This document shows, piece after piece, positions 38,561 through 52,526 of a stretch of 64,000 nucleotides of DNA. The stretch's first letter is position 1. Every line of letters begins with the position of its first letter. The translations under genes and the position numbers were made by a program. The stretch covers positions 1-64,000 of the forward strand of contig PYJD01000024.1 of the NCBI GenBank assembly GCA_003635315.1, written 5' to 3'. The notes under the pieces were generated by a model. The model worked only from the letters and a program-made list of their open reading frames with translations. It had not been told where the DNA came from and did no database searches. The DNA is from Candidatus Poribacteria bacterium. GTDB lineage: Bacteria; Poribacteria; WGA-4E; WGA-3G.

Positions 38561-40279
38561 TTATTTAGAAATGGTATTGGTAAAAATACTCAAGAATTCT
38601 GGATCATCTTTTATATCAGAAAATTCGTATGTATTAACGAAATATGAGTAGTAACTATCCCGAAAATTATAGGAAGAAACAACATAGCTTTTCTCAGCAA
38701 TCTTCAAGTGTTGTAGCGTCTTCTCACGGTCTTTCTCGGATGCCCAAATACTCACAGCCAATTGGTAGTGTCTATAGTGATCCTCACCTCCCAAGTCACA
38801 AGCAACTTGAAGGAAACTCCTTGCTAAATTATACTTATTCATCCATACCAGAGAACAACCGATATCATGTGTAAGCCAGATCAGATCCCCAGTATTTACC
38901 GGTTGACGTGCGGTATATTTCTTATACTCACCTTCCATATAGTCTTTGAGTTCGGTTATTATTTCATCAAAACGTTTTGAATCATTTCGTCTGTTATACA
39001 ATAGCAATCGATTGGTCTTCACATGTAACCAGAATCGAAAATAGTGTCTCCAATCCTGTTTGGTATTCGTATTTTCTAATTTTTCAAGCAGAATTAATGA
39101 CTCATCAGATTTGCCATTTGCCCGTAATACTTCTGCCCCGATTTGAAGAAATACGCAGCGGTCTAGATAACTTACATCAGAATTTTCTAAACGTTCTGAT
39201 GCCTCATTATATAGTTTAATCCATTCATCAATACGATCTTCCGCTGACCAGGCTCCTGGGTTCTCAAGATTAGAAGAGAAGATTTTTAATATATCCCTAT
39301 CTGAAATATTGTTTTTGCATGCCCACTGATAAAGCTGTAATTGTTCCTCAACGGAATCTCTGTGTCTCCCAAGAAATGCAAAACTTGATGCTAACTCTTG
39401 ATGTGCCCAAAATCGTTCTTTATTATCTGGTGGGTTTTCCAAGAACTTATGTAGAAGAGGCAGTCGTTTTTCTATTCCCTGTTTACCCATATGGGGATAT
39501 ATGTCATCAACTAATAAATGTACTACTTCAGGAGAAATATCTCCATTAAGTGTATTCTCAATCTCATTGAATGTATTCGTAAGAAGATCCTCTCTTGATG
39601 TAGGATTATTTTTCACTTGTTCCATGTATGAATCGAATTTGCTTTGAATTTTTTCCAATTGACTCATGATATTCTCCTTTAGTTTATCAGATATTGGGAA
39701 GTAATCTAAAAATTCCTGATTGATGATTTCTTGATCTGTTTGTAGACGTTTTCGTGCGCGTTGAAGTCGACTCGTAATTGTATTTACGGACACTCCCATG
39801 AATTCACCGATTTCTTTTGTAGACATTTCGTCAAGATAATAGAGTGTTACAGCCGTGCGTTCATTCTCTGGCAGTTTTACCAAGAGCTTTTGCACAAGCT
39901 CCTGACAATACTCGTTTCTCTCTGTCACCTGCTGTTCTGACATGTGATGTGTATAAGAGGATTCCTCTATTTCTTCCTGACGTGTGTCATTCAAGGATTG
40001 CATCGCAGGTTTTTGTTTTCGTACCCAATCAATGCAAAGGTGTTTTGCGATAACATGGAGCCATCCAGCAAATTGGTTGGGATTCTCGAGTGTCGGAAGT
40101 CTTTTGTATGCATTAAGGAAGGTATCTTGCATAATCTCTTCCGCATGGTGAAAATCCTGAATCTTCCGCCACGCAAGAGCATGAATGCTCTTTTGATATT
40201 TTACTACCAAAATGTCAAATGCAGTATCGTCGCCCGATAAGATTTTGCGAATCAGTTGAACATCGTCATCTTTTTCCAC
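38561..40279 (-). CDS. ECF sigma factor with TPR-like C-terminal domain
   Basis: 572 residues. Residues 1-190 form an ECF sigma factor: region 2 (DFHHAEEIMQDTFLNAYKRL, GWLHVIAKHLCIDWVRK) and region 4 (AVTLYYLDEMSTKEIGEFMG with a helix-turn-helix). Residues 205-572 are helical, with repeated Trp/Tyr/Leu patterns suggesting TPR-like repeats (WAHQELASSFAFLGRHRDSV, LIWLTHDIGCSLVWMNKYN). The start is ATG/GTG-type near 40279. An internal ribosome site plus ATG sits at the junction (39665-39680). There is no anti-sigma gene beside it, so the extension may itself regulate the sigma part. Closest relative: the next gene upstream. Confidence 0.85.
   Translation of the reverse strand: MEKDDDVQLIRKILSGDDTAFDILVVKYQKSIHALAWRKIQDFHHAEEIMQDTFLNAYKRLPTLENPNQFAGWLHVIAKHLCIDWVRKQKPAMQSLNDTRQEEIEESSYTHHMSEQQVTERNEYCQELVQKLLVKLPENERTAVTLYYLDEMSTKEIGEFMGVSVNTITSRLQRARKRLQTDQEIINQEFLDYFPISDKLKENIMSQLEKIQSKFDSYMEQVKNNPTSREDLLTNTFNEIENTLNGDISPEVVHLLVDDIYPHMGKQGIEKRLPLLHKFLENPPDNKERFWAHQELASSFAFLGRHRDSVEEQLQLYQWACKNNISDRDILKIFSSNLENPGAWSAEDRIDEWIKLYNEASERLENSDVSYLDRCVFLQIGAEVLRANGKSDESLILLEKLENTNTKQDWRHYFRFWLHVKTNRLLLYNRRNDSKRFDEIITELKDYMEGEYKKYTARQPVNTGDLIWLTHDIGCSLVWMNKYNLARSFLQVACDLGGEDHYRHYQLAVSIWASEKDREKTLQHLKIAEKSYVVSSYNFRDSYYSYFVNTYEFSDIKDDPEFLSIFTNTISK
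39665..39680 (-). promoter_or_regulatory. Internal ribosome binding site at the sigma/TPR junction
   Basis: On the minus strand AAAGGAG, 6 bases, ATG (codon 39667-39665), in frame with the sigma-TPR gene at residue 205. Translation from here would give a separate 368-residue TPR-like protein. The paralog has the same arrangement. Confidence 0.6.
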
Positions 40280-40434
40280 AAGACATTCTCCTATTGAAAT
40301 CGGTTTATCCTTCTAAAATTAAATGACGAAAGTTTAAGAAGAAAACGTGCATCATGGAAGAAAAAATGGAAATCTCAGGAATTTTTATTGTGTTTTCACA
40401 AGTTTGTTACAAGAGAATTGTAATAAATTATAGA

Positions 40435-40467
40435 CCTGCTCTATCTCAGTAAGCGAGATAGAGCAGG
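40435..40467. terminator. Strong hairpin between the two sigma-TPR genes
   Basis: Perfect 13-bp stem CCTGCTCTATCTC / GAGATAGAGCAGG with a 7-base loop, about 95 bases after the stop of the upstream sigma-TPR gene. No long T tract follows on either strand, so it may be a Rho-assisted terminator or an RNA-stabilising hairpin. Confidence 0.5.
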
Positions 40468-40563
40468 CCCTCTATGAGCCAGGAGCGTTCACACTCCTCA
40501 GAAAATTATGTGGTAGAAATAGATTTAAAATAATTGAATCACTACCAACAAGTAAAAGTAACC

Positions 40564-42261
40564 CTATTTCTGCCCAAGGACTTTCAGAAAATCTTTATCG
40601 TCCTTTACATCAGCGAATTCGGGTGTTTCAAGGAAGGCAGGATAGTACCTATCTTGATTCCAATAATTCAGCACATAATCGGAAGCGAGTTTTAGGTAAT
40701 GTAGAGTTTTTTCCCGATCCTTGTCAGTTGCCCAGACACTTACAGCAAGCATGAAATATGCCCAGTCATTTTTATGCTGTAAATCAAGTGAGATTTGTAG
40801 GAAACGTTTTGCTTCGTCATACTTCTGCGTCCACACCAGACAACATCCTACATCATGTGCAGCCCATATTAGATCGTTAATTTTTACAGGATAACCTGCC
40901 TCATGTTTTTCCAGTTCAAGTTCAATATATCTACTGACATCTGCCAAAACTTGATCATAACTATCCCAATCTTCCTGTTTACCGTATAACAATAATTTAT
41001 TGGTTCTCACAGCCAACCAGAACCTAAAATAATGTTCCCAATCTTGTTCTTTATTAGCGCGTTCCAATTTTTCAATTCCAAGAAATGCATCATCAAAGCG
41101 GTCATTGTGTCGTAGCACCTCTGCCCCGATTTGCAGGAAATCACAACGTGAGTAGGCACTTACTTCAGGCTTTTCAAGACGTTTAGATGCTTCATTATAT
41201 AGTTGGAACCATTCATCAATACGTCCTTCTTCTTTCCAACATCCCGCACTGGTGAGATTGGAAATAACTTCCAACACATACTTATCTGACATATTTTTGC
41301 ATGTCCAACGGTAAAGACTCTTCTGTTCATCAATAGCCTCTGCGTTCCTATCCAGACAATTGAGGCTATACACTAAGTGTTCATGTGCCCAGAAACGTTC
41401 CTCATCATTGGGTGCTATGTCTTGATACTTTCGGAGCAACGGGATCCGTTTTTCCATACCGATTTTCCCGTAATGTGCGTATATACTGTCCACAGCAAGA
41501 TGTGCCAACTCCGGTGTGATTTCCCCTTTGAGTGCTTCTTCCACCTCGTCATAGGCTTCCTTGAGAAGTGCCTCACCTGCAAGAACATCCTCTCCAGAAA
41601 TTGGATAAGATTCCACTTTTTCCATGAAAGCATTAAACTTGCCGCGAATTTCCTCTAATTTATTAGACATTAAATCTCCTTTATGACCACCCCATAACTC
41701 TCGGATCGTGTGTTCCTCCTTCTGTAGACGTTTACGAGCACGGTGGAGCCGACTTTTGACCGTGTTAGGTGAAACACCTAAATACTCTCCAATGTCCTCA
41801 CATGATTTGTCATCAAGATAGTGGAGCGTTACTGCAGCACGTTCACTCACTGGTAACTTTTGAAGGAGGTTATTGACAACCTCGCGTTGCCGTTCACTCA
41901 CGAATTCTTCCTGTTGATGTGTGTAGTATTGTGTATAAGCCAGATCCTCCAATTCCTCTGTTGGCATCGCATCTATCGATTCCATTGGGGGACGTTTTAT
42001 TTTCAACCAAGCGAAACAGTAGCGCGCCGCTATCACGTAAAGCCATCCTGCAAAACTATTACGGTCTTTCAAGGTATTGAGCTTTTGATACACCCTGAGG
42101 AATATATCTTGCGTGATTTCTTCAGCGATGTGGTAATCACCGATTTTCCGCCATACAAAAGCGTGGACTGACTTTCGGTATTTTTGCACAAGTGTGTCAA
42201 AAGCAGATTGGTCACCTGCCAATGTGCGTTGAATCAATAATTGTGCATCATCGTTTTGCAT
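40564..42261 (-). CDS. ECF sigma factor with TPR-like C-terminal domain (paralog)
   Basis: 565 residues, collinear with the gene at 38561. The sigma part (1-190) has DYHIAEEITQDIFLRVYQKL and CEDIGEYLGVSPNTVKSRLH for promoter recognition. The C-terminal 368 residues share WAHEHLVYSLN, GRIDEWFQLYNEASKRLE, FLQIGAEVLR and HYFRFWL segments with the paralog. The C-terminal part has exactly the same length in both. An internal ribosome site with ATG is again found at the junction. It probably belongs to a class of ECF factors controlled by an attached sensor rather than a membrane anti-sigma factor. Confidence 0.85.
   Translation of the reverse strand: MQNDDAQLLIQRTLAGDQSAFDTLVQKYRKSVHAFVWRKIGDYHIAEEITQDIFLRVYQKLNTLKDRNSFAGWLYVIAARYCFAWLKIKRPPMESIDAMPTEELEDLAYTQYYTHQQEEFVSERQREVVNNLLQKLPVSERAAVTLHYLDDKSCEDIGEYLGVSPNTVKSRLHRARKRLQKEEHTIRELWGGHKGDLMSNKLEEIRGKFNAFMEKVESYPISGEDVLAGEALLKEAYDEVEEALKGEITPELAHLAVDSIYAHYGKIGMEKRIPLLRKYQDIAPNDEERFWAHEHLVYSLNCLDRNAEAIDEQKSLYRWTCKNMSDKYVLEVISNLTSAGCWKEEGRIDEWFQLYNEASKRLEKPEVSAYSRCDFLQIGAEVLRHNDRFDDAFLGIEKLERANKEQDWEHYFRFWLAVRTNKLLLYGKQEDWDSYDQVLADVSRYIELELEKHEAGYPVKINDLIWAAHDVGCCLVWTQKYDEAKRFLQISLDLQHKNDWAYFMLAVSVWATDKDREKTLHYLKLASDYVLNYWNQDRYYPAFLETPEFADVKDDKDFLKVLGQK
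41668..41682 (-). promoter_or_regulatory. Internal ribosome binding site at the sigma/TPR junction (paralog)
   Basis: On the minus strand AAAGGAG, 5 bases, ATG (41670-41668), in frame at residue 198. Initiation here would yield a 368-residue TPR-like protein, the same length as from the paralog. Confidence 0.6.
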
Positions 42262-42297
42262 TCTTCAGCTCCAAAAACATTGTGTCTTTCATAATGT

Positions 42298-42328
42298 TAA
42301 GATAGGTAATAGAAGCGGCATGGTTGCA
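42298..42328 (-). promoter_or_regulatory. Candidate ECF-type promoter motif
   Basis: TGCAACCAT (42320-42328, minus strand) is also present at 50768-50776 ahead of another ECF sigma gene. In both places the GCAACC core is followed 17 bases later by TAT, and the distance to the start codon is about 50-60 bases. It could be a shared autoregulatory promoter. With two examples this is weak. Confidence 0.3.
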
Positions 42329-42738
42329 TAAAATGCAATAAACAGAAAAATGTTAATTTTATTTATCTCTTACTTTTTCGTTCATATAGATTAGGCGGGG
42401 ACATAGAGACCCACCCATAGGTGTCAATTTAATGGTTCTCCATAGACATCAATTAAAGGATTTTCCAATCATATTTGGGTGATTTCTATCCTCTTGTAGG
42501 TTGGGTTGATAAGCCGTTCTTACCAGGTTTGTTGTATGATTTTTATATGACATAATATTTTTTAGGTATGGTATTAGGTTAAATAGACAATACCTTCGCT
42601 ATTTTGAATGCTTCAGTTGAATGAGTATATAGTGTTGATCTACCATTGCTCTGTGTATTGTAGGATTCTATGAATAAAATTAATTCATGTTTTCTTTGAA
42701 CTATTTTTAATTTCCATAGAACCTGTTTTGACAATAGG

Positions 42739-42850
42739 CACAATCTAACAGAATGTGCTACAAAAATCACAATCTAACAGAATGCGCTACAAAAAACACA
42801 ATCTAACAGAATGTGCTACAAAAAACATAATCTAACAGAATGTCTATTAT
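42739..42850. repeat. Four tandem 29-bp repeats
   Basis: Units of cacaatctaacagaatgtg followed by ctacaaaaaa, with a 29-base period; the fourth unit is degraded. On the minus strand each unit begins with GTAG next to a partial palindrome. It is related to the palindrome at 35487. The remainder of 42262-43027 contains no gene. Confidence 0.85.
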
Positions 42851-42929
42851 TGGTGAAAGTATTAATAGTATGATTTGATAATTGTTGTATTTTCCTCTAA
42901 TCCAATTTACCTTACATAATTAAATTAAT

Positions 42930-42961
42930 AATGAAGATTAGGCATGTTCCTAATCTTCATT
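42930..42961. terminator. Hairpin after the sigma-FtsZ fusion gene
   Basis: Perfect 13-bp stem AATGAAGATTAGG / CCTAATCTTCATT with a 6-base loop, about 65 bases after the fusion gene stop. The minus-strand tail is AT-rich but not a clean T run. It marks the likely end of that transcript. Confidence 0.6.
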
Positions 42962-43027
42962 AAATGTACTTATAAAGACAGGTATGTTTAGACTTTTTAT
43001 CTACATGTATTATACTTTAGGATGATG

Positions 43028-44227
43028 CTACATGAGGTTAGCGTAAAGATTGGATAAACATTCAACACTGTGGAGCATAGCCTTATCACTCATACTAAAT
43101 GCTTCATGTATCTTCATTTGATGAGACGCAGCGTTAAGAAGACTTTGGTTTTGAATTACAACAATAGAATCGGTGTTTTTCCGTAATTCTCGTAGTCCTT
43201 GTTCTGCGCGGTGGTGAAACCGTTGTCCCTCAAAATTAAATGGACAAGTGACAACTCCAATAGTTATTGCTCCTTTTTGTTGGGCAAGAGAAGCAATAAC
43301 GGGTGCTGCCCCCGTTCCAGTACCACCTCCCATCCCAGCAATAATGACGATAATATCCGTATCGACAACAATTTCATCTAATTTCTCAATATCTTCTTCA
43401 GCAGCTTTCTTACCAATCTCTGGATTTGCTTGGCTACCAAGTCCTTGAGTAGTGTTACCGCCAATCTGTATGCGGATACCATATTCACACTTGTCAAGGG
43501 TTTGTAGATCTGTATTTACAATGTAGGATTGAATGTCTGTCATACCCATCTCTACCATCCGTTGGACAGCATTACAACCTGCACCACCGACACCAATCAC
43601 CTTAATTCTATTTTGCATATTTTCTGATTCATGATTACGTATCATATTTCCCCTTATATTTGGTTCGACACCGAACTCTTTACGAAGAAGCTTTCGTATC
43701 TGCATTAATCTTGTCTTAATTGTTCCAACTGCGATACCAAGTTCCCTGTGGATTTCTGCAATACTCCACATATCCAAATAATATAATTTTGCTATACGTA
43801 GTAATTTATCTGGAAGATTATGTACTGCTTCAGTCACTGCATTAAGTAGCTCTGTTCTGTTGAAATATGTAATGGAGTCTTGATTAATTCTATCTAAAAT
43901 GAATACATCAGAACACAGTACTTCATAGTTAGAATATTTCTGAGAATTATAGTACCGTTTACATGCATTGTAGGCAATGGTACTGAGCCATGCCCCAAGA
44001 CTCCCAGGATTTTGTAATCCTTTGATGTTATCCCATACAGATATCCAAACATCCATAAATATCTCTTCAGCATCACAACGTGATCTTGAATTCATTATAA
44101 TCACTTTCCATAGATTTGGACTAAAACGTGACATCAGCTCATTTAATGCAGACTCATCACCATCTTGTGTAAGTCGTATAAGTTCTTCATCCGTAAGTTC
44201 AGTGTTTCTTACTATATCGAATTGCAT
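43028..44227 (-). CDS. ECF sigma factor fused to an FtsZ GTPase domain
   Basis: 399 residues in one uninterrupted frame. Residues 1-190 are an ECF-type sigma factor: RCDAEEIFMDVWISVWDNI in region 2 and LYYLDMWSIAEIHRELGI leading into the region-4 helix-turn-helix. From residue 204 the sequence is unmistakable FtsZ: RIKVIGVGGAGCNAVQRM, YIVNTDLQTL, ANPEIGKKAAEED, the tubulin signature GMGGGTGTGAAPV (GGGTGTG at 300-306), and VTCPFNFEGQ. It stops after the central H7 helix (ECLSNLYANLM), so the T7 loop (usually NVDFADV) and the C-terminal domain are absent. Nucleotide binding is plausible, but normal GTP hydrolysis and filament formation are not. An internal Shine-Dalgarno and ATG precede the FtsZ part. 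Confidence 0.9.
   Translation of the reverse strand: MQFDIVRNTELTDEELIRLTQDGDESALNELMSRFSPNLWKVIIMNSRSRCDAEEIFMDVWISVWDNIKGLQNPGSLGAWLSTIAYNACKRYYNSQKYSNYEVLCSDVFILDRINQDSITYFNRTELLNAVTEAVHNLPDKLLRIAKLYYLDMWSIAEIHRELGIAVGTIKTRLMQIRKLLRKEFGVEPNIRGNMIRNHESENMQNRIKVIGVGGAGCNAVQRMVEMGMTDIQSYIVNTDLQTLDKCEYGIRIQIGGNTTQGLGSQANPEIGKKAAEEDIEKLDEIVVDTDIIVIIAGMGGGTGTGAAPVIASLAQQKGAITIGVVTCPFNFEGQRFHHRAEQGLRELRKNTDSIVVIQNQSLLNAASHQMKIHEAFSMSDKAMLHSVECLSNLYANLM
43643..43655 (-). promoter_or_regulatory. Internal ribosome binding site before the FtsZ-like domain
   Basis: On the minus strand AAGGGG, 4 bases, ATG (43645-43643), in frame at residue 195 of the fusion. Initiation would give a 205-residue FtsZ-like GTPase domain starting nine residues before MQNRIKVIGVGG. 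Spacing is a little short. Confidence 0.5.
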
Positions 44228-44390
44228 AGATAGATATTCATTTAGATTTAAGCTTAAGAGAGTGAATTATCAGAGGATGGTTTAAAAAATAGTATTAACA
44301 GATAAGATTATTGATGATACGGAACTGCCAAGATTATTGGATTGGTTCAGTTTTGCTCAGCGTGTCTCAAATTGATATATCAATTCTTTA

Positions 44391-45200
44391 TTAATTACTG
44401 TCTTCTGTTTTCAGGTATTTTAGTGGACTTTCAAGGTTGTAATCTCCCGATGCCTCAAGAAAATGCTGCACAAGATAGACATGACCTGCACCGATTATCA
44501 ACAGAATTCGGTCTTCAGAAGATTCGGTAATACGCGTTAGATTCACAAAAATTTTGAGATTTCTATCGTACCAATAATGTGACAGCCAATTCGCTCCGGG
44601 GTATTGGTCGCCTAAGCCAATCTGCGACCTCCGTAGGTATAGCTGATGTTCGGCACGTCTCCCTTCAGGTTCGTTGTCGCGAATGTATATGTCAATGAGA
44701 GATTCGTATTTTGTAGGTACAATCCAGACACTACCATCTTCCTCCTCGTGGAATTCCACGTTAGCATCAGGATAGTAGTCCTCTATGGTTGACAACAAGT
44801 GTTCTTGATTGTGTTCCTTTGCAAATTTAGTAGCATCGGTCAAATCCGAGTCAAGATCTTCTGGTAAAAATGGGTTATGCTTTGGCCAATAATCAACACA
44901 GTATACCATTGCATGTCCCATCTCTTTTGCCAACCTATAACCAATCTGATCACCCTCGTCCCGTCTGAGTTCGTATGTTCCGTTCAGATAACCTTGATAG
45001 TCTTTGTTTTCGGCTTCACAACGACTTGGATCCAACTCAAGTGCAATCTTGGTCGGTTTAAATTCCTTGAGTAGTTCAACTAACTGTTTAATTTCGCGCT
45101 GGCGTTTGGGTGCAAGCACATCGTCAATTTTGAAATTGTATGCGTCCATGCCAGGATTCGCTAAGTGTCTACTGCCGAGAATCATGATTGTTGGTTTCAT
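44391..45200 (-). CDS. DUF5694-type protein
   Basis: 269 residues from the ATG at 45200, which has an aggggag site 7 bases ahead; longer in-frame starts are less likely. IMILGSRHLANPGMDAYNFK, DVLAPKRQREIKQLVELL and FKPTKIALELDPS fit the DUF5694 family, distantly related to TraB/PrgY-like proteins with conserved His and Glu residues. A late segment ILLIIGAGHVYLVQHFLE carries a second GxxH. No signal peptide or membrane helix. Function of the family is unknown. It stands alone between the sigma-FtsZ fusion and a lipoprotein gene. Confidence 0.7.
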   Translation of the reverse strand: MKPTIMILGSRHLANPGMDAYNFKIDDVLAPKRQREIKQLVELLKEFKPTKIALELDPSRCEAENKDYQGYLNGTYELRRDEGDQIGYRLAKEMGHAMVYCVDYWPKHNPFLPEDLDSDLTDATKFAKEHNQEHLLSTIEDYYPDANVEFHEEEDGSVWIVPTKYESLIDIYIRDNEPEGRRAEHQLYLRRSQIGLGDQYPGANWLSHYWYDRNLKIFVNLTRITESSEDRILLIIGAGHVYLVQHFLEASGDYNLESPLKYLKTEDSN

Positions 45201-45326
45201 ATATTGCTCCCCTTTTAATTTTTTAAACATTATAGCATACATGAGGAATTAGTAGGCTGTCCATCATAAAATTGTATGTATCAATAAATGATGTCGTGAC
45301 GAGAAGGTCGCTCCTAATACAACAAA

Positions 45327-45361
45327 TTGACGCCGAATGTACGTATGGTGTTCGGCGTCAA
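45327..45361 (-). terminator. Hairpin terminator after the lipoprotein gene
   Basis: Perfect 11-bp stem TTGACGCCGAA / TTCGGCGTCAA, 68 bases after the lipoprotein stop, with TTTGTT following on the minus strand and TTT on the plus strand. Its core resembles the ccgaatg...cattcgg repeats near 51.1 kb. Confidence 0.6.
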
Positions 45362-45428
45362 TTTCATTACATTACCTATTATTGTATTCTTATATCATCT
45401 CACGTTACACTTTGGGACAATAACTTAT

Positions 45429-45983
45429 CTAATCGGTAGACCTAATAGGAGGTGGTGTATTATCATCTAAAAAACTTTTAACAGATTTTGATGTGCCTTC
45501 GTAACGACTAAAAGTACTTATTATATATATATTTCTGCCCACTTCAATTGGGTGTATATCGTTATGATTTCCATAATTGAAATTTCCATCTCCATTAAAT
45601 CGGATAATGAGACGAATTGAATTTATATGGTCATCACTTGTGGGATTAACATTTGTACAAATTAGACTTAGAGCTATAGTGGGTTCCTCGTCTGATAACG
45701 GAAATGTCTTACTAAAGTTTTTGGTAATAGTATATTTTTCATTGTAATTGTAATCAATCACTGTACTACCTAAACTGTCTTTATATAAACTGTAGTCTGT
45801 AGAAATATCAAGGTTAAATGCAGTACCCTCTGGAACATCTTGAATCATAACGGTTACACTTTCAGGCAGATCAGTATTGGGGAATTGGATTACACGATTT
45901 CCTTCACTACAACCGATAAGAGAAGATACCGTTAGTAGAAAGGTGATAATAGTAATACATAAAAACAGATTTGTTACTCTCAT
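45429..45983 (-). CDS. Hypothetical lipoprotein
   Basis: 184 residues. The signal peptide ends LTVSSLIGCSEG, a good lipobox with Cys near residue 25. The mature part is beta-rich with many Asn and Asp (VIDYNYNEKYTITKNF, IIRFNGDGNFNYGNH) and no recognised domain. Translation starts after aaaggaga. A single-gene transcript is likely, bounded by the hairpin downstream and the repeat array upstream. Confidence 0.65.
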   Translation of the reverse strand: MRVTNLFLCITIITFLLTVSSLIGCSEGNRVIQFPNTDLPESVTVMIQDVPEGTAFNLDISTDYSLYKDSLGSTVIDYNYNEKYTITKNFSKTFPLSDEEPTIALSLICTNVNPTSDDHINSIRLIIRFNGDGNFNYGNHNDIHPIEVGRNIYIISTFSRYEGTSKSVKSFLDDNTPPPIRSTD

Positions 45984-46084
45984 TAGATTCTCCTTTCAAT
46001 GTTCATAAGGTTAAAATCAAGATAGGTATTGAGGTATTAACTATGGTAAACATTAGATTTAATTAGACACTTTTCTTGTAGGAG

Positions 46085-46400
46085 TGTCCTCCTGATCGCG
46101 ACCGGGAGGTCGATCCTACAAAAGAGTTGCGGGATGAAAACAAATGTTGTGCAAATAGAAATGTCCTCATGGTCGCGACCGGGAGATCGCTCCTACAGAA
46201 GAGTTGCAGATGAAAACAAATGTTGTGCAAATAGAAAATGTCATACTGGTCGCGACCAAAAGGTCGCTCCTACAAAAGAGTTGCGGGATGAAAACAAATG
46301 TTGTACCAATAGAAATGTCCTCATGGTCGCGACCGGGAGATCGCTCCTACAGAAGAGTTGCGGGATGCGAATAAATATTGTACCAATAGAAAATGTATAA
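46085..46400. repeat. Four tandem ~78-bp repeats carrying GTAG-type palindromes
   Basis: Each unit combines a palindrome (ggtcgcgaccgggagatcg then ctcctac, i.e. GTAGGAGCGA on the minus strand) with a spacer containing agagttgcgggatga and acaaatgttgt. Units differ at several positions. The array ends exactly where the 831-residue gene's stop codon begins. A plus-strand open frame through it is only a by-product of the repeat. Confidence 0.85.
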
Positions 46401-48896
46401 TTAAAATGTTCGGGACCATTTAAAGTTAGCTTGATATCCACGTTCTCTGTCAAGAGGTCTTGCGAAATTCAATCTGAAGATACCAAGTTGGAAACCGATT
46501 CCGAGGTTAATCTTTGGATTAATATGTTTAACGTCATTAAAATGCTCCCACGTTTGTCCTATGTCTACGAAAGGTACAATGAAGAATCCTTTTGTTAAGT
46601 TATGTAGATACTCCAAATTGAAGAGAAAACCGTGGTTACCGACAAATTCATAGAGGGTATATCCGCGTAATGTTCCGATACCACCAAGCACAAATTGGCG
46701 TTGGAAAGGTAATGAATATTCCGTAGCTGCAACTCCAATTTTGAGGCGTGTATCGATGCGGTTTTCACCAATTGGATGGTAGTTCCGTAGATGTATCATA
46801 AAACGTGTAAAATCATAGGTAGAACCGAATTCAGAATTTGAATGTTCAATCAGAAAAGTGTTATACCACTCGTTATGACTCGCTTTATTTTTCAAGTCGT
46901 ATCGAATTCTTGTGTCTTTACGATTATCAAAATCATATTTTAAGGATAGACTATGCATTCTGCCACTATATATCAGAGAATTTTTTCTTGTATGTGTACC
47001 TAAGTAATACCCATCAGTTCCGATTCTGAAGTAAGAATCGCTATTTATGAATATGCTTTCATGTTCTTCCAAGAGTAGTGTTAGTCCAATGGAATGCTTC
47101 AATGTAGGGTTCTGCCATTGAAGTGCCATCACTCCTCCCTGTCTGGCATAGTAATCCTGAAAGTCAGTACTAAAGAATGCTCTCACAAATTGCTCACTAC
47201 CACTTAACAAAAGGTCTCTATCCCTTGTAGATGTTAGTCTATGAATTTGAGCACTATAGGTTAGATATGATTTGTCACCAAATGTGATTCCACCACCAAG
47301 CCGATAATTAGGAGGAACTGACTGAGTCGTAAAACTCATACTCCCGTATACAAACGGTCTTAACCCTAAGTTGGACGGTATGTTTAGATCTTGGTTCACT
47401 TCAACCGGGATAGATCCAGTATTTACATTTCGTCGTATGGTTTCACCTGAACGATCAAAGAAGTATGGATCAGAATTCCAGCGTGTTCCAAGTTCAATTC
47501 CACCCCCGAGTCGAATTCCATCGACAGGATTTATTCCACTGGTATTCACAAACCGTAGAAAATCTCTGTTCGTGAGTGATTCATCCTTCTCTTTAGCCAA
47601 TACAAGTGGTATACTGTGGTTTTCATTTTCTAAGGCATCTAACATACCTTGCATAAGTGAGAATTTGGAAGGAGGTATAATCTGTTTCCAGTTTCCATCG
47701 TCTTGGTAATTCTCTCCATCACCGATATTTGACCACCAAGAATGCACGCTTGTTCTTTGGTGTTTTCGTTCAAAATTGATCCCCATATGGATTGGTTCAG
47801 AACTCTCAGGATAATCCAGTATTTTCCAAGGAATTTCCATTTCTACAACCCATCCGTCTTTAACAGTCTTCGTTGCCACGTTCCATTGATTAGCCCTTTC
47901 GTCATCTTTTGCGCGACGTGTACCAAACTGAATATACTTCTTGCCAACAGGGTTTACCATAAACAGTGTTCGTTGTGTAGATTTGTGTGTATGGAAAGGG
48001 TCAATAGTAAAACAGACAGAATCTTCATCGGTAAAATTACTTTTATCCTTTGATAGGTGTGAAGTGATCTTATTTGGTTGAGAATCATGTAGATACCATG
48101 CAACATAGATTGCTTTATCGGTATATACCAGTTTTGCTTCAGTTTGATCTTTTACGATTTCTTCGGTCATTGCATGTGTGAATTTATCTGCTATTGGTGC
48201 AGTTTTCCAACATATATCTTCAAGATTTCCATCTATAACAGGTGGTTTTTCAGACTTGACAGCCAGCAACTCTCTTTGAATTGTATCTCGATTTACATTT
48301 AGTTCTGCGCTTGTCTTTAGTGTCCCCTTAAGATCTATATCAGTCATACCGAAATTGCTTAGATTACCGAGTAATTCAGTAATTCTATCTGGTGCAATTC
48401 GTCCAATGATATTGATAAATGTCACCTCATCAGGATTCTTGGTAGCAAAGATAACAAAGATACCATAAGCAACATCTTCATCGTATAATAAACTGATTTC
48501 AACAATTTCTGCAGTATCTCTTTTGTTCTCGCGTTGATTGACTTTTACAAGAGTTTCCCATTTATTTTTCTTAAGTTTATCTCGATAATACTTGATCATA
48601 TCAATCTCTGTAACACCGTATTCGCCATAGGTCCGTAGATAGATACCCTCAATCATTTTGATTAGTTCTACCACCTCTGGTTTGGAATTTACGGATTTGG
48701 TTACCAGATTGATGAGTTTATCGGTAAGATTAACCTCTACCTGTGCTTCAAGTTCATCCAAATAATCAAAAGGTACGAGTCCTTTTTTGATCTGATTATT
48801 TTGGTTTTCTTGAGCAAATGAATGCTGAATAGGTATGGTCGATAGTAGTAAGAATAACACTGTATATACCAGTGAAAGTATTCTTTTGAGATTCAT
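46401..48896 (-). CDS. DUF4252 - CBM9-like - Omp85-like barrel fusion protein
   Basis: 831 residues. A signal peptide ends near residue 28 (HSFAQEN). Residues 45-200 are a DUF4252-like domain similar to the separate protein encoded next (ELIKMIEGIYLRTYGEYGV, VTFINIIGRIAPDRI). Residues 210-420 are a CBM9-like domain (KPPVIDGNLEDICWKTAP, VCFTIDPFHTH). The C-terminal 350 residues form a beta barrel ending in Phe, with FVLGGIGTLRGYTLYEF, the lid-lock RGY motif of Omp85/surface-antigen barrels. It is likely an outer-membrane protein exposing periplasmic sensor-like domains. It is the last gene of the ECF operon from 50718. Confidence 0.8.
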   Translation of the reverse strand: MNLKRILSLVYTVLFLLLSTIPIQHSFAQENQNNQIKKGLVPFDYLDELEAQVEVNLTDKLINLVTKSVNSKPEVVELIKMIEGIYLRTYGEYGVTEIDMIKYYRDKLKKNKWETLVKVNQRENKRDTAEIVEISLLYDEDVAYGIFVIFATKNPDEVTFINIIGRIAPDRITELLGNLSNFGMTDIDLKGTLKTSAELNVNRDTIQRELLAVKSEKPPVIDGNLEDICWKTAPIADKFTHAMTEEIVKDQTEAKLVYTDKAIYVAWYLHDSQPNKITSHLSKDKSNFTDEDSVCFTIDPFHTHKSTQRTLFMVNPVGKKYIQFGTRRAKDDERANQWNVATKTVKDGWVVEMEIPWKILDYPESSEPIHMGINFERKHQRTSVHSWWSNIGDGENYQDDGNWKQIIPPSKFSLMQGMLDALENENHSIPLVLAKEKDESLTNRDFLRFVNTSGINPVDGIRLGGGIELGTRWNSDPYFFDRSGETIRRNVNTGSIPVEVNQDLNIPSNLGLRPFVYGSMSFTTQSVPPNYRLGGGITFGDKSYLTYSAQIHRLTSTRDRDLLLSGSEQFVRAFFSTDFQDYYARQGGVMALQWQNPTLKHSIGLTLLLEEHESIFINSDSYFRIGTDGYYLGTHTRKNSLIYSGRMHSLSLKYDFDNRKDTRIRYDLKNKASHNEWYNTFLIEHSNSEFGSTYDFTRFMIHLRNYHPIGENRIDTRLKIGVAATEYSLPFQRQFVLGGIGTLRGYTLYEFVGNHGFLFNLEYLHNLTKGFFIVPFVDIGQTWEHFNDVKHINPKINLGIGFQLGIFRLNFARPLDRERGYQANFKWSRTF

Positions 48897-48958
48897 GGTC
48901 TTATCTCCTGTAAATGTAATGTAGATAAAGATTCTTTATATATTGGAAGAAAGGTTGA

Positions 48959-49516
48959 TTATTCAGATTTCTTATCACTGATATTTGCAAAATTAGCATC
49001 AATTTTGATTTTCTTCATAAAGTCTGGGGATGTTTCCATTATTTTTGCAAAGAGGACACCAAGCTTTTGAAAATCAATTTCACCAAAGATATTGACAAAA
49101 GTCGTGTTCTGTTTTTCAGTGAATGATATAAAGATTCCATTAAGAACACCAGGAGTTTCATCAAAGAGCATACTGACATAAAGTTCGTCCTTTACCTTGA
49201 CGATCTGCTCCCAATTTTCTGTTTTTAGGGTTTTTTGGAATTCGTTCTTCATATTTTTTAAATCCGGTGACTGTTTATCATAACTCTGTATGTAAATTCC
49301 ATCAATCATTTCAGCGTACTCAGAAAATTCTGGAAGATTCAGCGTAAAATTGATAAACAGATTAAAAAACGATTGGTCTAAGCTAACTTCAATTGTTGGC
49401 GTTGGATTATTAGGTAATTTCATATCTATTTTTCCTCGGATCACATTGGTCTGTGCATAAGTGCTACCGAAAAAACAGATTGTAACGAATAAGGTAGTAA
49501 GGGTAAGTCGTTTCAT
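48959..49516 (-). CDS. DUF4252-like exported protein
   Basis: 185 residues with a signal peptide (LFVTICFFGSTYAQT). The mature part resembles the N-terminal domain of the 831-residue neighbour: EYAEMIDGIYIQSYDKQS, TLKTENWEQIVKVKDE, TTFVNIFGEIDFQKLG. DUF4252 proteins are typically found in operons with ECF sigma factors, as here. The start overlaps the anti-sigma stop (ATGA). Probably a periplasmic component of the same stress response. Confidence 0.75.
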   Translation of the reverse strand: MKRLTLTTLFVTICFFGSTYAQTNVIRGKIDMKLPNNPTPTIEVSLDQSFFNLFINFTLNLPEFSEYAEMIDGIYIQSYDKQSPDLKNMKNEFQKTLKTENWEQIVKVKDELYVSMLFDETPGVLNGIFISFTEKQNTTFVNIFGEIDFQKLGVLFAKIMETSPDFMKKIKIDANFANISDKKSE

Positions 49517-50184
49517 TGTATATTTCCTCCTGGCTGTTGATTATTTACATCAATCGGATTATCTCTTGACCTACTTGAATCTTGTTTTTCTGGTCTATCT
49601 GAACCTGTTAGTATGTGAAGGATATCAAAAGTATTTTGAATTGATGATGAAATTTCGATTGTTGGTTTAAGTGCACGCCTTGGTGCATCGTCAATGTTAA
49701 GAGAAGTAAAACTTTCATTTACTCCCAAACTTGTTTTCCGTACAGCGATCTGCACTTTACTCATAGCATAATAGAATTCGTCTTTCGCTTGTTCCAAGAC
49801 AATATATCTACGATATTGGTGTATCCCAATTAACATCATACCGATAATGAGTATTAAAGTGCTGAATCGTAATACTGGAGAACGTAGGAATGACGAAACA
49901 TAGGAGAAATTAGGGATCTTATGTAACCAACCATACTTTTTCTGATTTTCCCTGACATAAGCCATAACTTCATTTAATACCTCTGGTGGAGAAGTCGGTT
50001 TTTCCAAATCATCTAATATTGTATCAATCGTCTGTGCCATACGATATTCTTTTTGGCAGACGTCACATGTGTTTAGATGATATTTGATTGAGGATTCGAC
50101 TTGAGAATCTAATTCTCCAGAGATATATTCTTCCAAAAATGTTTGTATGTCAGTGCATGAATTAATGTATGGTTGTTGTGCCAT
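49513..50184 (-). CDS. Membrane anti-sigma factor (zinc-finger type)
   Basis: 223 residues. The cytoplasmic N-terminus has the zf-HC2 zinc motif: SIKYHLNTCDVCQKEY (His-x3-Cys-x2-Cys) plus an earlier Cys near residue 9. One membrane helix lies around 110-125 (FSTLILIIGMMLIGIHQY), with a periplasmic part of about 95 residues. It would hold the co-encoded ECF sigma factor at the membrane and release it on an envelope signal. It starts 3 bases after the sigma stop and overlaps the DUF4252 gene. Confidence 0.88.
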   Translation of the reverse strand: MAQQPYINSCTDIQTFLEEYISGELDSQVESSIKYHLNTCDVCQKEYRMAQTIDTILDDLEKPTSPPEVLNEVMAYVRENQKKYGWLHKIPNFSYVSSFLRSPVLRFSTLILIIGMMLIGIHQYRRYIVLEQAKDEFYYAMSKVQIAVRKTSLGVNESFTSLNIDDAPRRALKPTIEISSSIQNTFDILHILTGSDRPEKQDSSRSRDNPIDVNNQQPGGNIQ

Positions 50185-50187
50185 TGA

Positions 50188-50718
50188 TTATATCTCCATT
50201 ATACGGTTTAATATCTCACGTAATTTCTTTCGAGCACGAAAGACGGTGGATTTAATAGTATTCTCAGATTGTTTTACAACCATTGCTATTTCTTTGTAAC
50301 TCATTTCTTCTAATTCCCTCATGACTACTATAGACCGAATGTCTGGCGGTAATTCTGATATAGCCTGATGTACCAATTGTTTTGTTTCCTGATTAATAGT
50401 GTTTTCCTCTGGTGATGGATTTGGCTGGTGGGAATGTTCCTGTAGTAATATTTCCAGCGAATTACCATCCTCTTCATCTGACAAATGAACCTGAAACTTC
50501 CGTCTTTTAATTTTATTAAAGCACAGATTCCGTGCACATTTTAATAACCAATAACGAACAGTATCTTGTCTCAATTTTGATCGATGTTGCCATGCCTTCA
50601 TGAAAGTTTCTTGTGTCATATCCTTAGCGTCATCAATGTTTTTTAGAAGATAGAGTGTATGTCGGTATACTTGATCTTGATGCTTCTGGACTAATTCAAG
50701 GAATTCCTCTTCAGTCAT
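50188..50718 (-). CDS. ECF RNA polymerase sigma factor
   Basis: 176 residues, a standard two-domain ECF factor. Region 2 reads DDAKDMTQETFMKAWQHR and YWLLKCARNLCFNKIKR; region 4 reads IVVMRELEEMSYKEIAMVV with its helix-turn-helix. It is the first gene of a four-gene operon with a membrane anti-sigma factor and two DUF4252-containing envelope proteins. It probably activates its own operon. It is closely similar to the sigma factor at 52989, indicating a recent duplication of the sigma/anti-sigma pair. Confidence 0.92.
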   Translation of the reverse strand: MTEEEFLELVQKHQDQVYRHTLYLLKNIDDAKDMTQETFMKAWQHRSKLRQDTVRYWLLKCARNLCFNKIKRRKFQVHLSDEEDGNSLEILLQEHSHQPNPSPEENTINQETKQLVHQAISELPPDIRSIVVMRELEEMSYKEIAMVVKQSENTIKSTVFRARKKLREILNRIMEI

Positions 50719-51371: not shown

Positions 51372-52526
51372 TTACTCCATATATTTCATTGGAGAAATTA
51401 CAAACACATGGTTCTCTTTAGTTATAGAATTAAAAATAACCGGCATTAAATTGGTACTATACTCCATTTTGACTGCCTCATCGTTCATGTGTGATAAACC
51501 TTCTATCAAGTAGTTAGCATTTAGATAAATATCAATATCAATTCTATCTCCTATATGTTCAATATCTATCTCCTCAAATGCATTACCTATATTATCTGTT
51601 TCACTTGATAGGATGAGCTTATCTGGTTGAATTGATAATTTCACTCTATAAAGTTTAGGATTTGATAAGACAGACACTCGTTTTAATCCATCAATTAATC
51701 TTGTACGATGAATTTTAATACCTGCGGAAGTTTCTTGTCGAAGGAGATGTTGATAATCCGGATAATTTCCTCCACCAAAGACTTTTGAGGTTAATTTTGT
51801 ATTATCATCATTAACCTGAATATAAGAAAGATTGTTTTTCTTTGTATTCATATCTTTATCGGCATCCATAAAAATGGTTACATCTGAAGTATCAGAAATA
51901 TGTTCTATGATATTCTGTGCTGATTTCTTTGGGAGAAAAAATGAATAATTCTCAAGAGAACTTTTGGATTTGAATTCTGCCAATGAAAAAACAACACTAC
52001 CATTCGTTGCAGCAATTTCAGATTTATTTTTCTGAATATTAAAAAGTAATCCATGTATACCTTTATCAACTGCATTTTCATCTACAGCAAAAGCGGTCTT
52101 GTTAATCAGTGAATGTAAGGACTGATCTTCTATAGAAAGCGTTGATCCATGTAGGGTTGGTATAACTGGAAAATCAGTAAGAGGAAATGTCCTAAGATTA
52201 TAAACACCTTGGGGGCATGAAATTTTTAGAACATCTCTCTCATTAGATGAAGATATGTCAACCAGAGCTTCTTTCGGTAGTTTATCAATAATTTCAGTCA
52301 TATGATTACCCAATACCACTACTTTACCATCTTCTGTAACTGCACAATTGACTGTAGTCTGAATGGTGATTTCTGAATCTGTAGTAGTCAATTCTATACC
52401 ATCACCATTTGTTTGTATAAGTAAGTGGGATTGTTTGTATAATCCATCGTTAGAATTAAGATCACTCTCTATTTTTATTGATGTTAATGCAGTTATTAAA
52501 TCCTGTCTATTTGTAGTTAGTTTCAT
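51372..52526 (-). CDS. Divergent DNA polymerase III beta-clamp (DnaN paralog)
   Basis: 384 residues, close to DnaN length. It shows the three-domain clamp pattern: start MKLTTNRQDLITALTSI, TTDSEITIQTTV in domain 1, NKTAFAVDENAVDKGIHGLLF and YSFFLPKKSAQNI in domain 2, KLTSKVFGGGNYPDYQHLL in domain 2/3, and the C-terminal SPMKYME in place of the usual MPMRL. Several normally conserved positions differ, and there are no dnaA, recF or gyrB neighbours, so this is probably an accessory clamp. It follows an ECF sigma/anti-sigma pair by 71 bases on the same strand. Confidence 0.85.
   Translation of the reverse strand: MKLTTNRQDLITALTSIKIESDLNSNDGLYKQSHLLIQTNGDGIELTTTDSEITIQTTVNCAVTEDGKVVVLGNHMTEIIDKLPKEALVDISSSNERDVLKISCPQGVYNLRTFPLTDFPVIPTLHGSTLSIEDQSLHSLINKTAFAVDENAVDKGIHGLLFNIQKNKSEIAATNGSVVFSLAEFKSKSSLENYSFFLPKKSAQNIIEHISDTSDVTIFMDADKDMNTKKNNLSYIQVNDDNTKLTSKVFGGGNYPDYQHLLRQETSAGIKIHRTRLIDGLKRVSVLSNPKLYRVKLSIQPDKLILSSETDNIGNAFEEIDIEHIGDRIDIDIYLNANYLIEGLSHMNDEAVKMEYSTNLMPVIFNSITKENHVFVISPMKYME

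Follow-up and report, generated by a model that had tools for sequence, protein, structure and literature searches.

An ECF sigma factor fused to the GTPase half of FtsZ is conserved in Poribacteria and may read the state of native FtsZ

Introduction

A gene in a 64,000-nucleotide stretch of Candidatus Poribacteria DNA (hereafter the window) joins a complete ECF sigma factor, in frame, to the GTPase half of FtsZ, and this fusion is real and conserved. Sigma factors are subject to control by anti-sigma factors and by regulatory domains fused to them. Those of the ECF class are defined by having regions 2 and 4 and lacking regions 1 and 3. To the best of our knowledge, the sigma–FtsZ fusion has not been described: a literature search, with the groups of the main ECF classification outside its reach, returned neither this fusion nor any other sigma factor joined to division or replication machinery. 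We tentatively suggest that the protein is a conserved, probably autoregulated ECF sigma factor whose FtsZ half reads the state of the native FtsZ and gates the sigma part, a proposal to which we would give somewhat less than an even chance.

In order to characterize the gene and its relatives, we combined domain and structure searches, an AlphaFold model, comparisons across the phylum, estimates of selection, and analyses of the translation start and promoter signals. The same sigma clade turns out to be joined to several other partners, and its genes carry a conserved upstream element as well as a putative second, internal start signal.

Results

One frame encodes an ECF sigma factor and half of FtsZ

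The gene begins with ATG and, as stated in a preliminary description made from the sequence alone, stays open for 399 codons with no internal stop. Its features and those of its immediate surroundings are collected in Table 1.

Table 1. Positions of the fusion gene, its domains, and neighboring features in the window.
Feature	Position	Strand	Basis
Sigma–FtsZ fusion gene, short form, 399 aa	43028..44227	−	Open reading frame, Pfam, homologues
Sigma-70 region 2, residues 36–97	43937..44122	−	Pfam PF04542
Sigma-70 region 4, residues 129–181	43685..43843	−	Pfam PF08281
FtsZ/tubulin GTPase domain, residues 207–366	43130..43609	−	Pfam PF00091, PDB matches
Internal Shine–Dalgarno-like AAGGGG in the linker, function predicted	43650..43655	−	−7.0 kcal/mol against the 16S tail
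Free FtsZ GTPase half of 205 aa, predicted as a second product, from Met195 (43643–43645)	43028..43645	−	Shine–Dalgarno match, solo halves
Predicted ECF promoter TTTAAACC-N18-CTCTTAA, beginning 59 nt 5' of the start codon	44254..44286	−	Family pattern
Inverted repeat 3' of the gene, possible terminator	42929–42942 / 42949–42962		14-bp arms
DUF5694 protein, adjacent upstream gene	44391..45242	−	Pfam

The domain composition proposed in that description, an ECF sigma factor followed in the same frame by the GTPase half of FtsZ with its nucleotide motifs intact, is borne out by the Pfam profiles Sigma70_r2, Sigma70_r4_2, and Tubulin, each of which exceeds its cut-off. Sigma region 4 (PF08281) does so barely, with 27.8 bits against 25.7, and the tubulin-signature GTPase domain characteristic of FtsZ (PF00091) reaches 152.4 bits against 33. 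The profile TIGR02937 (sigma70-ECF) scores 72.4 bits with a cut-off of 42.9. PF04542 and PF08281 are the only sigma regions matched by Pfam, and a further domain is added at the C-terminal side of region 4, as in ECF factors with extensions. The motifs VNTD, GMGGGTGTG, and PFNFEG are all kept. Similarity to FtsZ continues past the Pfam domain to about residue 395, which corresponds to the end of helix H7, and there the gene stops. The alignment thus agrees with the truncation noted earlier: the T7 loop is missing, as is any Pfam match to FtsZ_C (PF12327), and TIGR00065 scores 240.1 bits, under its cut-off of 295.2.

The best 50 of 1866 PDB matches are all FtsZ, with 38–47% identity and rmsd values of 1.0–2.6, and in a PDB sequence search the sigma part matches structures of SigW, sigma-E, and RpoE. 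RepX, which shares the tubulin superfamily, also appears in the sequence search at 1.3e-6, but the window's domain is far nearer to FtsZ (best 5.6e-51), and judged by these matches it is a true FtsZ relative. The AlphaFold model of the fusion, computed from a 71-row alignment (A1), has a mean pLDDT of 79 and a pTM of 0.51. Because residues 188–204, which link the sigma and FtsZ parts, have pLDDT values below 50, the two look in the model like beads on a flexible string.

In contrast to canonical FtsZ, the window's half has no T7 loop, C-terminal domain, or tail, and it is joined to a sigma factor in a genome that keeps a separate, normal FtsZ. Indeed, a tubulin-family search of this genome found two places, 43130–43609 and contig C40, the latter with a 443-codon open frame encoding the normal protein.

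The fusion recurs throughout two genera

Homologues with both domains are common in related genomes. Sigma–FtsZ genes (match at E up to 1e-70) occur in 54 of 84 phylum genomes, namely in 17 of 18 from the window's genus and 37 of 38 from the sister genus; none was found in a third genus of the family (0 of 2 genomes) or outside the family (0 of 26). The 89 loci comprise 46 short forms, like that of the window, and 43 longer ones, both kinds being present in 33 genomes. Open frames of the short forms span 398–445 codons, and two genomes carry two each. The second short form of G017, on a 3.1-kb contig, resembles those of the other genus and could be a contaminant; no weight should be placed on its mosaic pattern.

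Among 7990 homologues at E up to 0.001, the 120 listed (the window's protein included) are 397–443 aa long and cover 97–100% of the query, far beyond chance. Of these, 119 have precomputed family assignments to both Tubulin and sigma region 2; the other, P0003, is assigned to Tubulin alone, yet 100% of the query is aligned. All 48 relatives in named genomes come from Candidatus or uncultured Poribacteria, 26 of them reaching residue 388 or beyond and 22 matching the sigma part only, with an end by residue 240.

The preliminary description had held that the gene is not an obvious frameshifted FtsZ, and had named a stop codon or an assembly join between the domains as evidence that would speak against a genuine fusion. 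The fusion recurs, none of the 89 matches listed contains a stop, and short forms are found in four one-contig assemblies (G023, G081, G082, and G083). On the basis of this recurrence and of the dN/dS values given below, we rejected an assembly artefact, a frameshifted FtsZ, and decay. A phage origin was likewise rejected, no relative having been found among the viral contigs searched. Plasmid records gave 68 matches, none with 80% query coverage, and the best five cover residues 150–394 only.

Both domains of the short form are under purifying selection

We gathered 62 proteins (the window's and 61 others), consisting of 32 short, 10 mid, 18 long, and 2 solo forms. All 32 aligned short forms terminate after H7 and retain the H7 Asp, and most have a SISEFHSS-like tail. 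The nucleotide-binding loops T1 and T4 are conserved at 0.96 and 0.95, respectively, in the 31 of 32 short forms used. In the window's protein, T1 reads GVGGAGCNA where the short-form consensus is GVGGAGGNA, and T4 reads GMGGGTGTG where the consensus is GMGGGTGAG; Cys218 of T1 and 11 more positions deviate from residues common to the short forms and canonical FtsZ. No short form has a T7 loop; in the long forms of the sister genus it is NVDF-like, and among the mid forms of the window's genus several lack an NVDF-like loop.

The sigma and GTPase domains are both under purifying selection. A crude Nei–Gojobori script applied to the 22 closest of 496 short-form pairs gave dN/dS values of 0.105–0.305 for the whole protein, 0.05–0.33 for the sigma part, and 0.09–0.24 for the GTPase half, the last of which disposes of the concern that the FtsZ domain is decaying in close relatives. 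Constraint is not steady in the 15-residue linker and the tail, where single pairs reach 1.67 and 1.16, respectively. For the window's gene and its closest relative (G011), dN is 0.17 and dS is 0.58. Because dS differs between the two halves in some pairs (0.10 and 0.78 for G030 and a G075 copy, 0.18 and 0.64 for G024 and G034), the sequences suggest recombination between sigma and GTPase modules in these cases.

In a GTPase-domain tree of 83 rows, canonical FtsZ proteins fall on one side of a branch with support 97/87, short and solo forms group together (100/96), and mid and long forms divide by genus. When the tree is rooted on five FtsZ of other families, the family's 16 canonical FtsZ are separate from the fused group. 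This topology fits an origin of the fused FtsZ in a gene that was duplicated once, close to the family's base, although fast evolution of the fused copies could mislead here.

The same sigma clade carries whole FtsZ, DNA polymerase III alpha, the beta clamp, and WD40 propellers

Partners of this sigma clade include the FtsZ half, whole FtsZ, FtsZ together with DNA polymerase III alpha, polymerase alpha alone, the beta clamp, and WD40 propellers. Mid forms (553–605 aa) consist of sigma and whole FtsZ, with GTPase and FtsZ_C domains (Pfam on two), and long forms (1341–1745 aa) have in addition domains of DNA polymerase III alpha, namely PHP, polymerase, and finger (Pfam on four). Sigma, whole FtsZ, and polymerase alpha occupy a single frame at 18 loci, for example, L033:3064-7356, L036:4762-8796, and L038:1600-5643. 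In the stretches read, an RbsC-like permease gene stands upstream of the mid and long forms. All 18 long forms have the PHP motif HNHS, and 16 have the PDxD motif. Because 16 of the 18 stop at residue 803–884 of the 1179 in canonical DnaE, they are missing what we take, from the roles of the domains, to be the clamp- and tau-binding end. A DnaE of normal length (open frames of 1174–1202 aa) was found in 14 of 14 genomes tested, 8 of which have a long fusion. In G011, sigma is joined to DnaE with no FtsZ.

Sigma fused to a complete DnaN (Pfam) occurs in G023, and seven further genomes have relatives, of which one is split into two pieces. In three of these eight (G023, G074, and G080), the gene stands beside the RbsC-like permease in place of sigma–FtsZ; no permease was seen beside the gene at the other five loci, three of those stretches being short. 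A second ECF lineage is also fused to DnaN (Pfam, NCBIfam), with a sigma part that is 23–26% identical to the window's and 48–51% identical to the two ECF genes that neighbor sigma–FtsZ in the window. In several sister-genus genomes it lies 3–4 kb from a short sigma–FtsZ gene. Loci of the two lineages include L168:2004-3746, L057:3845-5578, and L219:451-2202.

The WD40-propeller fusion is identified by Pfam on one gene, L149 of the window's own genome, and elsewhere in the clade this type was assigned by frame length or by eye. Stand-alone FtsZ halves without sigma are found in two genomes, G009 and G002. Upstream of the solo half in G009, short GC-rich repeats (CGCCCCGCTGGGGC; L046:5490-5760) are seen at the position expected for sigma.

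A predicted, conserved internal start precedes the fused partner

The junction residue Met195 lies in the disordered linker and is at least 90% conserved in alignment A1. It is preceded by a purine-rich stretch, AAGGGG in the window and AGAGGG, AGGGGA, or AGGAGG elsewhere. At the junction Met, the mean energy of the duplex with the 16S tail is −7.8 kcal/mol (59 of 60 genes scored, with the wrong Met taken for G071 and probably for G006), compared to −1.7 kcal/mol at other internal Mets, of which 54 of 946 equal the junction Met in strength, and −5.3 kcal/mol for synonymous shuffles at the junction. In the short forms the mean is −8.0 kcal/mol, with 32 of 32 at −6 or lower. The fusion's own start averages −4.2 kcal/mol (30 of 32 short forms, two with an extended called start being omitted) and canonical ftsZ starts average −3.3 kcal/mol (n = 21). 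At the 5% level the shuffle test is passed by 17 of 59 genes and by 5 of 32 short forms, including that of the window at 4%; it is weak in most short forms because the peptide itself is conserved.

The signal accompanies other partners as well. All 10 clade genes of 798–913 aa (WD40 type; Pfam on one) have a junction Met with −7.2 to −11.3 kcal/mol. All four first-lineage DnaN fusions scored have a strong match (−10.8 to −11.3) before the start of DnaN itself, and the old sigma-junction Met is weak in two of this lineage (−3.6 and −3.3). The DnaN start in the second lineage gives −6.6 to −10.7 in 3 of 3. The solo half of G002 begins with MISN, by eye apparently at the equivalent of Met195, and in G009 MISN lies ten codons inside the longest frame. 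A conserved in-frame start codon with a putative ribosome-binding site, the hallmark of a nested gene, is present in these genes, and we predict that translation from the internal Met also gives the FtsZ half as a free protein, encoded by the mRNA of the fusion.

A family-wide promoter-like element lies upstream

Typical ECF sigma factors transcribe their own genes from a promoter whose −35 box contains AAC. The sigma genes of the clade are preceded by a family-wide element, TTTAAACC-N18-CTCTTTA. In 31 of 32 short-form genes, TTTAAACC lies no more than 160 nt from the called start, 29 of them at 52–60 nt; in the remaining one (G082), the site is 174 nt upstream. Beyond the element, no conservation of the upstream DNA is apparent by eye outside close relatives. 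Neither of the two sigma-less solo genes has TTTAAACC within 160 nt.

The pattern TTTAAACCN{14,18}CTCTTTA occurs at 106 sites in 50 of 57 family genomes, and the reversed pattern at 4. Of these sites, 76 sit 58–224 nt 5' of clade genes: 24 belong to short, 28 to long or probable long, and 6 to mid forms, 7 to DnaN fusions (two before one gene), 9 to frames of 812–896 aa counted as WD40 type by length, and 2 to others. Six of the 30 sites outside clade genes were read; they precede an ABC-2 permease (Pfam), three MacB/FtsX-like permeases (by eye), a lipoprotein-like protein (by eye), and, in one case, no frame longer than 60 aa within 320 nt.

The strict pattern has no match in the window's genome, where the gene's own site reads CTCTTAA, and the pattern was widened to TTTAAACC-N18-CTCTTWA so that this site fits. 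The window's site is then the sole perfect match in its genome, and one WD40 fusion there has a site at one mismatch. Because this gives 6 sites in all against 4 in the control, the other sites in this genome are no better than chance. We predict that the element is the fusion sigma's own promoter, and that the sigma recognizes it and would therefore drive its own gene and some ABC permeases.

Discussion

Relation to known systems

The fusion shares its plan, an ECF core with a fused C-terminal domain, with ECF41 (SnoaL), ECF42 (TPR), and ECF57 (WD40). In the accessible part of an ECF review, the activities of ECF41 and ECF42 are described as regulated by their C-terminal extensions, and a term search of that text gave no mention of FtsZ, tubulin, or Poribacteria (PMC8999054). 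Regulation without an anti-sigma factor is plausible for the present fusion too, and its clade also includes a WD40 fusion (L149). It differs in that the partner is FtsZ, DNA polymerase III alpha, or the beta clamp. A further difference is the predicted internal start, which would release the fused domain. As far as we have seen, ECF factors with C-terminal extensions are known, whereas these partners and the nested start are new.

CapRel-Ebc resembles the fusion as a regulatory protein that uses FtsZ to report perturbed division. According to the part of its description available to us (PMC13423816), it is an antiphage protein, a fused toxin–antitoxin, that senses Gp0.4-bound FtsZ. There FtsZ is a separate host protein, whereas here a copy of FtsZ is built into the sigma factor.

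A model for the role of the FtsZ half, and its rivals

Most likely, the FtsZ half serves as input domain to a sigma factor that is autoregulated, and would read the state of the native FtsZ. Because sister genes carry whole FtsZ, a DNA polymerase, or the sliding clamp, the fusions would probably couple gene expression to how division and replication are proceeding. In the accessible text of PMC7327170, FtsZ is described as two independently folding domains, with the nucleotide site of one subunit contacting the T7 loop of the next. A half with the nucleotide face and without the T7 face could bind a filament end or a monomer but could not extend it, and for this reason we infer that it docks on native FtsZ and thereby gates sigma. 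In this model, the GTP-bound fused half would dock via its nucleotide face onto the exposed T7 face of native FtsZ, and docking would keep sigma from RNA polymerase during normal division; when docking sites are lost, sigma would be freed. The free half made from the internal start would compete for the docking sites and so set a threshold. The sister genes may play the same role for the replisome (DnaE, DnaN). Cys218 and the other 11 positions at which the window's protein departs from conserved residues count against this model.

Should the copies of FtsZ, DnaE, and DnaN act as inputs, transcription would be wired directly to division and replication within one polypeptide, and the predicted promoter would offer a ready-made reporter for testing this role.

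A serious rival, although on our analysis an unlikely one, is that the FtsZ half, DnaE, and DnaN are integrated decoys, serving as bait for phage or toxin inhibitors whose binding activates sigma. These are core division and replication proteins exchanged at one permease locus, DnaN has been joined to two separate ECF lineages, sigma and GTPase modules appear to have recombined in some pairs, and CapRel-Ebc, in the part of its description cited above, detects a phage protein complexed with host FtsZ (PMC13423816). However, dN/dS is low, viral contigs hold no relatives, WD40 partners do not fit, and the handful of candidate targets examined encode permeases and one lipoprotein-like protein rather than known defence functions. 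PADLOC found no known defence family in the sigma–FtsZ gene and its six neighbors and no match in one long form; a sigma–DnaN relative gave one weak match, CARF3 (E 0.00042). Partner switching at one locus (FtsZ, FtsZ–DnaE, DnaN) would suit a decoy and a state sensor equally. The reuse of core cell-cycle proteins as partners, with DnaN in two ECF lineages, makes a case for bacterial decoy sensing. On a wider view, Poribacteria may possess a class of two-product sigma factors for cell-cycle surveillance, in which fused and free copies of FtsZ, polymerase III alpha, and the clamp are mimics that report sabotage or stalling to transcription, like integrated-decoy sensors; we regard this wider picture as possible but rather doubtful.

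The half could instead act as a monomeric GTP/GDP switch, reporting on the nucleotide pool without contacting native FtsZ. Its nucleotide loops are retained and the catalytic T7 loop is gone, but DnaE, DnaN, and WD40 at the same position would be left unexplained, as would the whole FtsZ with T7 and FtsZ_C in sister genes, and we consider this improbable. About as improbable is that the free half is the main product, a division inhibitor that caps FtsZ filaments, with sigma merely amplifying its own expression. The internal Shine–Dalgarno signal of the short forms, which on average outscores the one at the start of the fusion, and the sigma-less solo halves in two genomes point this way, but WD40-type and DnaN partners share the internal start and are not expected to cap FtsZ. 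An assembly join or a decaying pseudogene, for which only the oddity of the fusion and the longer-form gene broken into two frames in G069 could be adduced, has a negligible chance in view of the 54 of 84 genomes with sigma–FtsZ, dN/dS values far below 1, and the identical end point of 32 of 32 short forms.

A sponge metaproteome considered as a source of expression evidence provided none: the accessible text lacks the word FtsZ, and the six Poribacteria proteins given there are all oxidoreductases (PMC6081418).

Genomic surroundings

The hairpin that the preliminary description placed after the gene is real, with arms of 14 bp rather than 13. A relative of the adjacent DUF5694 gene lies near 14 of 30 short-form or solo loci examined, including both solo loci. 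Four ECF sigma genes, sigma–FtsZ among them, are clustered within about 12 kb on the minus strand of the window (38561–50718). Two of the others (38561–40279 and 40564–42261) have long C-terminal extensions in which Pfam finds no domain; their identification as TPR fusions was rejected, Pfam giving sigma regions and a weak HTH only. The fourth is a plain ECF gene (50188–50718), followed by a protein with a zinc-finger-anti-sigma-like cysteine motif (by eye; no Pfam match). A DnaN (beta-clamp) protein of 384 aa with three of three Pfam domains is encoded at 51372–52526 (minus strand), 7 kb upstream of sigma–FtsZ, and many relatives have two or more DnaN-like frames. Several ECF-fusion frames of about 1000 aa or longer, with WD40 or sortilin-like propellers, occur elsewhere in the window's own genome (L151, L152, L153, L154, and L163). 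Very many large ECF fusions are also seen in relatives, with 42 sigma region-4 matches in G009 and 74 in G034.
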